The notes under the pieces: model-generated
Seen by the model: only the letters and a program-made list of their open reading frames with translations
What the model was told of the DNA's origin: nothing
Databases searched by the model: none
From: Chryseobacterium shigense
GTDB taxonomy: Bacteria; Bacteroidota; Bacteroidia; Flavobacteriales; Weeksellaceae
Length of the DNA stretch: 64,000 bases
Reading direction: 5' to 3'
Assembly (NCBI RefSeq): GCF_014207845.1
Contig: NZ_JACHLC010000001.1
Location: 1,674,001 to 1,738,000 of the forward strand
In this document: in pieces, positions 35,646-40,704 of the stretch
Layout of the letters: every line of letters begins with the position of its first letter
Position numbering within the stretch: position 1 is the first letter of the stretch
Made by a program: the position numbers and the translations under genes

Positions 35646-37580
35646 CTATTTTTGGATAGATTTATAGGTTTCTACCAATCTTATAAATTCAGATCTGTAC
35701 CCTTCTTCATCTTTATTCCTGCCTTCTTTTGCAAGCGTTTCAATGGTATCAAGATCTTTTTTCTCAATTAATTTTGAATCCCGAAGCACTAACCCGAACC
35801 AGGCTACTGAAGTCGCAAACTTGAAATCCGGACTCGCAGATGCAACGGATTCATCGGAATTTTTAATAATCTGACTGAATTCAACACTTTTGTCCTCATC
35901 CGGTTTTTTATACCTGAATTTTACTGTTCCCAGTTCGTCTCCGAAGTTTTGGGAATTTAAAGTTGTTGTGTACTTTAATTTCGTTTCTTTAGGAGCAAAT
36001 ACTGATTTAACGTTCACAGGGATAATCTCATATAATGCAGTTACCGTGTGTCCGCTTCCCAATTCTCCCGCATCAATCTTATCATTGGCAAAGTCTTCGT
36101 TTCTAAGCTTTCTGTTTTCATACCCAATTAAACGGTAAGAGCTTACATATTTAGGATTGAATTCAATTTGAATTTTCACATCTTTTGCAATGGCGTACAT
36201 ACTTCCTGCAAATTCTTTTCCTAGAAATTTATTGGCTTCCTGCATATTATCGATATAGGCGTAATTCCCATTTCCTTTGTCAGCTAAAGTTTCCATCCTG
36301 TTATCTTTGTAATTTCCCATTCCGTATCCAAGACAGGTAAGAAATACACCTGATTTTCTCTTTTCTTCAATGAGAGCTTCAAGACCTGTAACAGAAGATT
36401 CTCCCACATTAAAATCACCGTCCGTAGCTAAAATAACCCTGTTATTCCCGCCTTTTATAAAGTTTTCCTGGGCAAGCTTGTAGGCCAGTTCTATTCCTTC
36501 CCCGCCTGCCGTGCTTCCTCCTGCACTTAGCTTATCCAAGGCTTCTGTAATCTTATCTTTTTCTTTAGCTGAAGTTGGGGGCAGAACCATTCCGGCACTA
36601 CCAGCATAGACTACAATTCCTACTTTATCCTGTGGTCTTAACTGGTTTAAAAGTAATTTTAATGAAGATTTCAGCAATGGTAACTTATTGGAAGCATCCA
36701 TAGATCCGGAAACATCAATAAGAAATAGAAGGTTTGAATTGGGTAGATTATCCATCGGAATATTTTTGCCCTGAAGACCTATTTTAAGTAGTTTATGACC
36801 GGGATTCCAAGGTGAATCGCTATATTCTGTATTGATTGAGAAGGGTCTTTTGCTTTCAGGCTGAGGATATTCATATCTGAAATAATTTATCATTTCTTCA
36901 ATCCTTACCGCATCTTTATCTACTTTGTCTCCACCATTGATCATTCTTCTGATATTAGAATAGGATGCATTATCAACATCAATAGAGAATGTGGATACTG
37001 GCTGGTTTTTTGTTAACTCAAAAGGATTTTCAACCAGGGAAGCGTATTCTTCGTCGTTATAATCTATCTGCTTTTTCACTCCTTTTTTATCAGCAGGCTT
37101 TACTTTATTGTTCTGATATTTTTTTTCATTCTGATCAAATGCTCTCCTTTTGGGTGCACTGCTCGTAATAATACTTTCTGAATATACTTCTATGGCTGTC
37201 TGACTTTTAGGTTTAGGACACCCATTATACTCCGGCATTCCGGGAACCGTAGGGCAGGCATCGTCTTTATCTAAAATGCCATCACCATCAGTATCCGGCC
37301 ACGGACAGCCATTATTTTCAGGAGGGCCAGCAACAGTTGGACAGGCATCGTCTTTATCTATAACTCCGTCACCATCAGTTTCCGGCCACGGACAGCCATT
37401 GTTTTCAACAGGACCTGCAATTTCAGGACACTGATCTGTTTTATTAGGAACTCCATCCTGATCTTTATCCTTTCTGATGCTTAAAGGTTTGGAGCCATTT
37501 TCTCCCGTAGATACTGTATTGGTTTTGCAACTGCTCAGGAGTGCCAGCGCAACTATTGCAGTACTTATTTTTTTCATCAT
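35646..37580 (-). CDS. VWA lipoprotein with thrombospondin type 3 repeats (YfbK-like)
   Basis: About 644 residues. A lipoprotein signal (KKISTAIVALALLSSC) is followed by three calcium-binding type 3 repeats (DQDGVPNKTDQCP, DGDGVIDKDDACP, DGDGILDKDDACP, each ending NGCP). The YfbK-type N-domain includes NPFELTKNQPVSTFSIDVDN and AVRIEEMINYFRYEYP, then the VWA domain with MIDAS LLFLIDVSGSM and DGDFNVG, and a C-terminal DUF3520-like part. The start is one of two adjacent ATGs (37580 or 37577); the longer frame to 37637 would spoil the signal. It shares most of its length with the next gene upstream (37707), so it is a tandem duplicate. Surface display or peptidoglycan binding is inferred; no OmpA domain is present. 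Confidence 0.85.
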   Translation of the reverse strand: MMKKISTAIVALALLSSCKTNTVSTGENGSKPLSIRKDKDQDGVPNKTDQCPEIAGPVENNGCPWPETDGDGVIDKDDACPTVAGPPENNGCPWPDTDGDGILDKDDACPTVPGMPEYNGCPKPKSQTAIEVYSESIITSSAPKRRAFDQNEKKYQNNKVKPADKKGVKKQIDYNDEEYASLVENPFELTKNQPVSTFSIDVDNASYSNIRRMINGGDKVDKDAVRIEEMINYFRYEYPQPESKRPFSINTEYSDSPWNPGHKLLKIGLQGKNIPMDNLPNSNLLFLIDVSGSMDASNKLPLLKSSLKLLLNQLRPQDKVGIVVYAGSAGMVLPPTSAKEKDKITEALDKLSAGGSTAGGEGIELAYKLAQENFIKGGNNRVILATDGDFNVGESSVTGLEALIEEKRKSGVFLTCLGYGMGNYKDNRMETLADKGNGNYAYIDNMQEANKFLGKEFAGSMYAIAKDVKIQIEFNPKYVSSYRLIGYENRKLRNEDFANDKIDAGELGSGHTVTALYEIIPVNVKSVFAPKETKLKYTTTLNSQNFGDELGTVKFRYKKPDEDKSVEFSQIIKNSDESVASASPDFKFATSVAWFGLVLRDSKLIEKKDLDTIETLAKEGRNKDEEGYRSEFIRLVETYKSIQK

Positions 37581-37654
37581 AATTTTTTTTACTGGCAGTG
37601 AAATTATCAAAATATATTTAATTTTTGTTAAAAACATCTAATTTTTTGTTAAAA

Positions 37655-37700
37655 TAAAGCACTGCTGTTTATTTTAAAAATCTTACAGGCAGTGCTTCAT
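37655..37700 (-). terminator. Possible terminator of the 37707 gene
   Basis: AAGCACTGC (37657-37665) and GCAGTGCTT (37689-37697) form a 9-bp stem with a 23-base AT-rich loop, followed on the minus strand by TATTTTAAC. Confidence 0.5.
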
Positions 37701-40175: not shown

Positions 40176-40185
40176 TTCTTAAAGT

Positions 40186-40704
40186 TTAAATGTTCTGATT
40201 GATCAAAAGTTCCTGTAGTTTTTTTCTTGCAAAATTGAGCTGGGATTTTGATGTTCCTTCGCTTATGGAAAGCATGGAAGCGATTTCCTTATGCGGATAC
40301 CCTTCTATTGCAAAAAGGTTGAATATTGCCCTGCAACCTTCGGGCAGAAAGTTCAACAGGCTCAGAATATCTTTTTCAAACGAAATATTTTCTGATGAAA
40401 CACCGGAGGTTTCTGCAAAACTGTCATCCATAGAAATGAACTGTGCTTTGGTAGCTCTCAGTTTCTGAAGACATTCATTCACAGTTATTTTTTTCGCCCA
40501 GCCTTCAAAGGTGTCCAGGTTTTGAAGCTGATTGATCTTCGTGAATATTTTGTAAAAAGTATCGGCCAATACTTCTTCAATATCTTCATCGTTTTTCAGA
40601 TAGCGTCTGCAGACTGCGTACAGCTTGCCCGCCATTTTCTCGTAAACCTTCCGCTGTGCACTGCGGCTGTTACGCTGGCATTCTATTAGTAATTCTCTTT
40701 CCAT
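40186..40704 (-). CDS. ECF RNA polymerase sigma factor
   Basis: A 172-residue sigma-70 family protein. Region 2 is at about 10-80 (RKVYEKMAGKLYAVCRRYLK, DEDIEEVLADTFYKIFTKI, FEGWAKKITVNECL) and region 4 at about 118-170 (LPEGCRAIFNLFAIEGYPHKE, IASMLSISEGTSKSQLNFARKKL). It is the first gene of the operon, 10 bp before the chimeric membrane protein, which is probably its regulator. Its target promoters cannot be read from this window. Confidence 0.93.
   Translation of the reverse strand: MERELLIECQRNSRSAQRKVYEKMAGKLYAVCRRYLKNDEDIEEVLADTFYKIFTKINQLQNLDTFEGWAKKITVNECLQKLRATKAQFISMDDSFAETSGVSSENISFEKDILSLLNFLPEGCRAIFNLFAIEGYPHKEIASMLSISEGTSKSQLNFARKKLQELLINQNI

Follow-up and report, generated by a model that had tools for sequence, protein, structure and literature searches.

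TonB is known for powering outer-membrane transport. In Bacteroidota, single chains that join an anti-sigma factor to an outer-membrane domain have been described as the Dma family (PMC13088901), and PorA, which carries a type IX sorting domain, acts upstream of PorXY-SigP (PMC7712824). We analyzed a 64,000-nt stretch of the Chryseobacterium shigense genome (contig NZ_JACHLC010000001.1, positions 1,674,001 to 1,738,000), referred to below as the window, in which a gene for an extracytoplasmic function (ECF) sigma factor is followed by a gene for an 822-amino-acid (aa) chimeric membrane protein that joins a piece of a TonB-dependent receptor to a von Willebrand factor type A (VWA) region. An earlier note on this DNA had held that anti-sigma factor and TonB receptor are separate proteins in known Bacteroidota systems; one-chain fusions to an outer-membrane domain, however, are already known from the Dma family. 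We consider it probable that the two genes encode a sigma/membrane anti-sigma pair whose head holds the sigma factor and whose periplasmic part senses, possibly with a role for TonB; sigma binding, use of the promoter motif, membrane topology, TonB contact and release are what we infer in this reading.

The locus and its chimeric membrane protein

Read on the minus strand from position 40704 downward, the window carries the sigma gene, the 822-aa gene and a VWA lipoprotein gene, with a gap of 10 bp between the first two, all where the earlier note had placed them. Pfam recognized sigma regions 2 and 4 in the 172-aa product of the first gene (E 1.4e-10 and 2e-14). The 822-aa protein opens with a charged head (residues 1–47), and the Ton box EEVVLTG (residues 185–191) sits just before its plug region. 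This region scored 40.7 bits with Pfam Plug against a cut-off of 23.9 (E 3.7e-10), matched the SusC/RagA family TIGR04056 over residues 181–332 (E 9.1e-30) and reached 47.9 bits with the SusC signature TIGR04057, just over the cut-off of 46.2. These three scores rule out a coincidental match, so the SusC-type plug proposed earlier is real. After the plug, vWF_A, VWA and YfbK_C domains follow in a row in Pfam without a barrel, again as the earlier note had described, and together with the metal ion-dependent adhesion site (MIDAS) they make up the domain row of the YfbK family. All elements of the MIDAS are present (DVSGS at 467–471, T535 and D565), and D467, S469, S471, T535 and D565 are invariant across a 51-row alignment.

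The AlphaFold2 model of the 822-aa protein (51 rows) had a mean predicted local distance difference test score (pLDDT) of 66.8. Because pLDDT fell below 50 at residues 14–99, taking in the head and the membrane helix, and at residues 113–272, the head, helix and linker are not resolved in the model. Within the plug region only about residues 275–326 are folded, with strands and helices and a pLDDT of about 69–78; it is the C-terminal half of the plug only that is predicted to fold. By Pfam and the model, the protein thus has a half plug and not the complete plug and 22-strand barrel of the SusC/RagA transporters. The 50 rows listed by Foldseek for the model contained VWA-containing and Sec23/24-type folds and no plug.

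The lipoprotein carries the lipobox LSSC, read from its sequence, and thrombospondin type 3 repeats (Pfam, E 1.2e-10), in agreement with the earlier description of a lipoprotein paralogue with repeats. Between its gene and the 822-aa gene (window 37638–37706), an inverted repeat followed by T's was seen by eye; this is possibly a terminator, in which case the lipoprotein gene may have its own promoter. Beside the sigma gene lies a divergent 400-aa gene (window 40940–42142) whose product resembles, by eye, a secreted cysteine peptidase, and this neighbor is kept in most Chryseobacterium loci scanned. Among the matches listed, database relatives of the 822-aa protein at 60–81% identity came from Chryseobacterium wherever the organism was visible.

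Table 1 Positions in the window of the genes, protein regions and putative promoter discussed here (ORF, open reading frame)
Feature	Position	Strand	Basis
ECF sigma factor, 172 aa	40186..40704	-	Sigma70_r2 and Sigma70_r4_2 (Pfam)
822-aa putative anti-sigma factor: head, membrane helix, linker, Ton box, half plug, YfbK-type VWA	37707..40175	-	
Presumed cytoplasmic anti-sigma head, residues 1–47	40035..40175	-	Profile A1, ECF adjacency; function presumed
Membrane helix, residues 48–69, lysines before it	39969..40034	-	Read from sequence
Ton box EEVVLTG, residues 185–191	39603..39623	-	Pattern, conservation in kin
Half plug (SusC/RagA signature), residues 275–326	39198..39353	-	TIGR04057, AlphaFold2 model
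YfbK-type VWA region, residues 354–818, MIDAS complete	37722..39116	-	Pfam, alignment
Lipoprotein: thrombospondin type 3 repeats and paralogous YfbK-type VWA	35646..37637	-	ORF list, Pfam
Putative sigma-dependent promoter TTCCAACC-N15-GCATCT	40726..40754	-	Conservation, genome-wide counts

Kin loci, exchange of the sensor part and the Ton box

A search with the full protein at E 1e-60 matched 32 of 148 family genomes, partly through the VWA region alone. Profile A1, which covers the head and helix (15 rows), matched 46 of 146 family genomes at E 1e-10 and 150 of 395 genomes of the order at E 0.001. Sixty-eight loci were scanned, with form D (below) and the other weaker profile-A1 head loci hand-picked; six without a head (L044, L055, L056, L057, L162 and L164) were left out, and head loci fetched as short pieces (L009–L037 and L086–L115, mostly the same sites) stand outside the remaining 62. 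In all 62 the head gene directly follows an ECF gene, mostly with a gap of 2–15 bp or a short overlap. This computationally observed linkage supports the N-terminus as the putative anti-sigma head that the earlier note had thought possible, and related genes lacking the sigma factor did not occur among these loci. That the 822-aa protein is a structural VWA protein sharing an operon with an unrelated sigma factor, its head being only a membrane anchor, is very improbable. The anti-sigma activity is a prediction, which leaves room for this view, but every scanned head gene adjoins an ECF gene, the head is constant and what follows the linker is exchanged, and profile A1 also finds the heads of ECF-linked proteins with a Dma-like layout (with barrel matches under Pfam's cut-off in both that were checked).

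The 62 loci and the window sort into four forms. Form A (n = 25) has head, helix, plug and YfbK VWA; form B (n = 15) has head, helix and half plug only; form C (n = 15) has head, helix, plug (missing in L151), VWA_4 and a type IX sorting signal; and form D (n = 8) has head and helix without plug or VWA. In 10 of the 15 form B loci the stretch fetched holds a separate VWA gene, for a lipoprotein or a secreted plug-VWA protein; that of L116 encodes a secreted protein with CarboxypepD, plug and VWA domains. The sorting signal was present in all 15 form C proteins by comparison with L039, and Pfam Por_Secre_tail matched at E 5.9e-12 in L039 and 7.7e-12 in L131. At the end of an inner-membrane-anchored putative anti-sigma factor such a signal is unexpected (form C loci: L038, L039, L130–L133, L136, L138, L141, L142, L146 and L149–L152). 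In L156 the VWA_4 and sorting-signal cassette is found on a lipoprotein instead. The two form D loci checked, L120 and L122, gave outer-membrane protein (OMP) beta-barrel matches under Pfam's cut-off. In one form A relative (L118:1214-4537), a single 1107-aa chain holds a Ton box, two tandem half plugs and a CarboxypepD domain.

On the sigma-factor tree the four form labels need 15 changes; the form C label alone needs 10, at least six of which are forced by well-supported branches. In ten A/C pairs the sigma factors are 84–98% alike and residues 1–75 are 77–95% alike, whereas the half plugs of the same pairs share 47–62% (13% where lost) and the parts after the plug 20–23%. These identities, together with the tree, indicate replacement of the sensor part behind a constant sigma factor and head. 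Judged from the sequences compared, the part after the linker is exchanged repeatedly, being a YfbK VWA, nothing, or another VWA with a type IX sorting signal. The VWAs of the anti-sigma proteins and those of the lipoproteins form separate clades in a VWA tree that leaves out L055, L056, L057 and L119, where the start motif was not found. The two VWA genes of the window are 87–97% identical to each other in three adjoining 90-bp bins (anti-sigma codons about 610–699), against 53–81% elsewhere, as if after exchange or gene conversion. In view of the separate clades and the one exchange-like tract, we dropped the idea that the lipoprotein gene is a recent duplicate of the window's anti-sigma gene. 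Taken as a whole, the earlier interpretation was supported as far as it concerned the anti-sigma head, recruitment of the plug and an undescribed arrangement, no counterpart having been found in the open-access PMC literature searched. Its picture of one fixed chain was not supported, as relatives have lost the VWA part or carry another in its place and the model shows disorder over most of the plug.

The Ton box of SusC Bt1763 reads DEVVVTG, and strains in which it was deleted or changed grew like a SusD deletion (PMC7782687). Linkers were delimited for 47 of the 55 form A–C proteins, eight being left out (four A, three B, one C). A strict Ton-box pattern was found in 17/21 form A and 12/14 form C linkers, that is, in 29/35 proteins with a C-terminal domain, versus 0/12 form B proteins, which are without one; shuffled linkers would give 0.3, 0.3 and 0.1 for A, C and B (0.7 in all). 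A looser pattern was found in 18/21, 12/14 and 6/12 linkers of forms A, C and B, with 1.1, 0.7 and 0.7 expected (2.5 in all). The form B matches to it are altered boxes, mostly EEVIAMG and also EEVIATG and NEVVVAA; they fit an ancestral Ton box as well as its decay, and they weaken the contrast with forms A and C. When the proteins were aligned on the box, the best core positions were 76–87% identical pairwise and most of the preceding 30 residues about 10%; because the rows had been selected on the pattern, the comparison with shuffled linkers is the fair test. In L151 of form C the box is kept without a half-plug match. The earlier note had suggested that the plug may serve as a ligand or partner sensor; conservation of the Ton box makes TonB a candidate reader of the periplasmic part.

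The same data bear on an anti-sigma factor that works without TonB, a reading we hold to be possible and somewhat doubtful. Here the Ton box and half plug would be a passive spacer or protein contact inherited from a SusC ancestor, and the signal would come only through the VWA binding an envelope partner, for example the neighboring VWA lipoprotein. Such a partner would suit the complete MIDAS, the separate VWA gene of 10/15 form B loci and the exchange-like tract between the window's two VWA genes, and form B, with no strict box in 12 linkers and an altered one in six, is what one would expect if TonB were dispensable. A passive spacer accounts less well for a strict box kept in 29/35 form A and C proteins although identity in the linker ahead of it is mostly about 10%, or for its persistence in L151.

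A putative promoter motif and its candidate regulon

Upstream of the sigma gene, the core of TTTCCAACC-N15-GCATCT is exact in 35/35 aligned Chryseobacterium loci, within an intergenic region that has diverged. The motif was exact in 41 of the 55 form A–C loci, and none of the 14 misses was from Chryseobacterium; most of these are near variants, and CCAACC is kept in 13 of the 14, the exception being L050, whose assigned start probably lies too far upstream. It was exact in 0/8 form D sigma genes. The 60 Chryseobacterium genomes searched held 169 sites of the core pattern versus three of the reversed pattern, and in 58 of them the motif marks a candidate regulon. Among 146 family genomes, 40 had both motif and head, five the motif only, six the head only and 95 neither. 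From such conservation and counts we infer that the sigma factor uses the motif as its promoter.

Three exact core sites were found in the window's own genome: at the sigma gene, at a gene in L073 and in the stretch L226. The L073 gene (L073:10626-11345; C1 about 1614600–1615350), with the motif 17 nt upstream, encodes a 239-aa protein with a Ton box and plug and no barrel. Its N-terminus has a Cys-rich motif, PCHExW..FCSVCSKTVxDFT, for which there was no Pfam match, and the protein also has a likely membrane helix. Relatives of this protein stand behind the same motif in many Chryseobacterium genomes; the strict Ton-box pattern occurs in only 2/14 of the short plug proteins. In L226 (C1:784882 onward) the core precedes three genes, for a type IX-signal protein and two RHS-repeat proteins. 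First genes related to that of L226 were seen behind the motif in other Chryseobacterium genomes (L189, L192, L230, L231 and L236), and G522 has further similar motif sites.

Two sets of sites were inspected; they are part of all sites, and 20 were hand-picked as unlike the sigma promoter, so the proportions are not rates. The first set (54 rows) comprised 14 sigma genes, 21 short plug proteins, five genes of the type IX/RHS kind, two VIT-domain genes, two of one lipoprotein-like family, three others and seven sites inside genes. The second (33 rows, including six longer re-fetches of sites) comprised 14 sigma genes, two short plug, four type IX/RHS, two VIT and one lipoprotein-like gene, two of one 485-residue open frame, one plug-less barrel gene, one other and six sites inside genes.

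At L039:9315-16001 and similar loci, a gene for a SusC-like 22-strand barrel without plug is followed 3–7 bp downstream by an alpha-2-macroglobulin gene. The alpha-2-macroglobulin carries a Ton box and plug, and in one genome the motif TTTCCAACC-N15-GCATCT precedes the pair. A profile of the barrel family had no match among PDB sequences at E 0.001, while fold comparison did match. The pair has the look of a single TonB transporter divided over two genes, suggesting that such transporters can be split in this way; no report of a split SusC/alpha-2-macroglobulin pair was found in a search of open-access PMC papers. It is improbable that the half plug of the 822-aa protein docks in trans into an outer-membrane barrel of this kind, with the anti-sigma factor reporting barrel state as in an inside-out FecA-FecR, since neither the window's own genome nor, in the stretch fetched, most head loci have such a barrel, and the alpha-2-macroglobulin beside it already offers a fuller plug.

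The proposed switch and known systems

In the core scheme, which the linkage, the promoter and the general behavior of ECF sigma/anti-sigma pairs make very likely, head residues 1–47 would hold the sigma factor in the cytoplasm, the periplasmic part would be the sensor, and its engagement would free the sigma factor for its own operon and other envelope genes. One helix would span the inner membrane, and a linker of about 115 residues would display the Ton box, half plug and VWA in the periplasm. Engagement by a VWA partner, by TonB gripping and pulling the Ton box, or by both would inactivate the head, most likely through proteolysis or a conformational change. Besides its own operon, the free sigma factor would then serve a small envelope gene set from TTTCCAACC-N15-GCATCT promoters, with many of these genes encoding plug-bearing proteins. 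The sensor cassette would be exchangeable with sigma factor and head constant, and form B probably works with separate partners. That TonB takes part in signaling is plausible and falls short of probable: conservation of the Ton box speaks for it, and the decay or loss of the box in form B speaks against its necessity. Only tentatively do we suggest that the TonB motor, driven by proton-motive force, grips the Ton box of the anti-sigma chain, so that the sigma factor would report TonB availability or the anchoring of the exchangeable envelope cassette, which in form C bears a type IX secretion signal, with a regulon of plug-bearing envelope proteins that in some genomes would include the split SusC transporter.

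Several observations weigh against the proposed switch. In the AlphaFold2 model the head and helix have a pLDDT below 50, and most of the plug is disordered, so it may not act as a plug. As the Ton box of form B is altered (6/12) or not found (6/12), TonB contact is not required for the sigma/anti-sigma pair as such, and even the looser pattern was not found in 3/21 form A and 2/14 form C linkers. On the promoter side, the genomes are related, so the co-occurrence of motif and head is not independent, and at least three of the 40 genomes with both (L250, L251 and L252) have a motif match within a gene; motif sites inside genes make up 7/54 and 6/33 rows of the two site sets, and the RHS site of the window's own genome has the form TTCCAACT, at a distance of nearly 200 nt from its gene. 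That genome lacks the plug-less barrel: a search with the barrel gave only three local matches (24–27% identity, in frames of 927–1035 residues).

The switch suggests a possible new way for such bacteria to sense envelope state. If TonB does act on it, the motor would be coupled directly to transcription through the Ton box of an anti-sigma factor, and this TonB-to-gene signaling would be testable by one point mutation. The repeated exchange of cassettes behind a fixed sigma/head pair, one of them bearing a type IX signal, shows the way in which such sensors get rebuilt.

Among open-access PMC papers, the searches turned up no anti-sigma factor described as containing a Ton box or plug. As in FecI-FecR-FecA, an ECF sigma factor stands with a membrane anti-sigma factor (here putative) and pieces of a TonB-dependent receptor; in contrast to that system, the Ton box and plug piece lie within the anti-sigma chain itself. 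A FecR type was rejected, with neither FecR nor STN (whose role in such signaling is also treated in PMC7782687) among the Pfam matches of the 822-aa protein up to E 1 (HMMER filters drop most above 0.1). A full TonB receptor with an STN domain might be expected beside a system of that type; between 33000 and 44000, the part of the window covered, the ORF list has no other receptor-length ORF. With the SusC/RagA transporters the protein shares a Ton box and a plug signature, but it has no barrel, and the N-terminal half of its plug is disordered in the model. The inner-membrane YfbK-like vWA force transducers (PMC12204202) resemble it in membrane helix, disordered linker and YfbK-like VWA fold, from which the 822-aa protein is set apart by its anti-sigma-like head, its Ton box and its ECF linkage; assignment to this type was rejected because their SHLS motif is absent from residues 1–90 of the 822-aa protein. 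Form C would parallel PorA in that a protein with a type IX C-terminal signal feeds an ECF sigma factor, and unlike PorA it bears the sorting signal on the putative anti-sigma chain itself. Judged by analogy of layout, the Dma family is the nearest in plan. The beta-barrel that defines this family was not found in the 822-aa chain, which has the Ton box, half plug and YfbK-type VWA in its place, as form C has a VWA with a type IX sorting signal. Both share a single chain with an N-terminal anti-sigma domain (here presumed), a disordered tether and a C-terminal envelope domain beside an adjacent ECF gene in Bacteroidota, and among the ECF-linked proteins that profile A1 picks up are two with a weak match to an OMP beta-barrel (L120 and L122).

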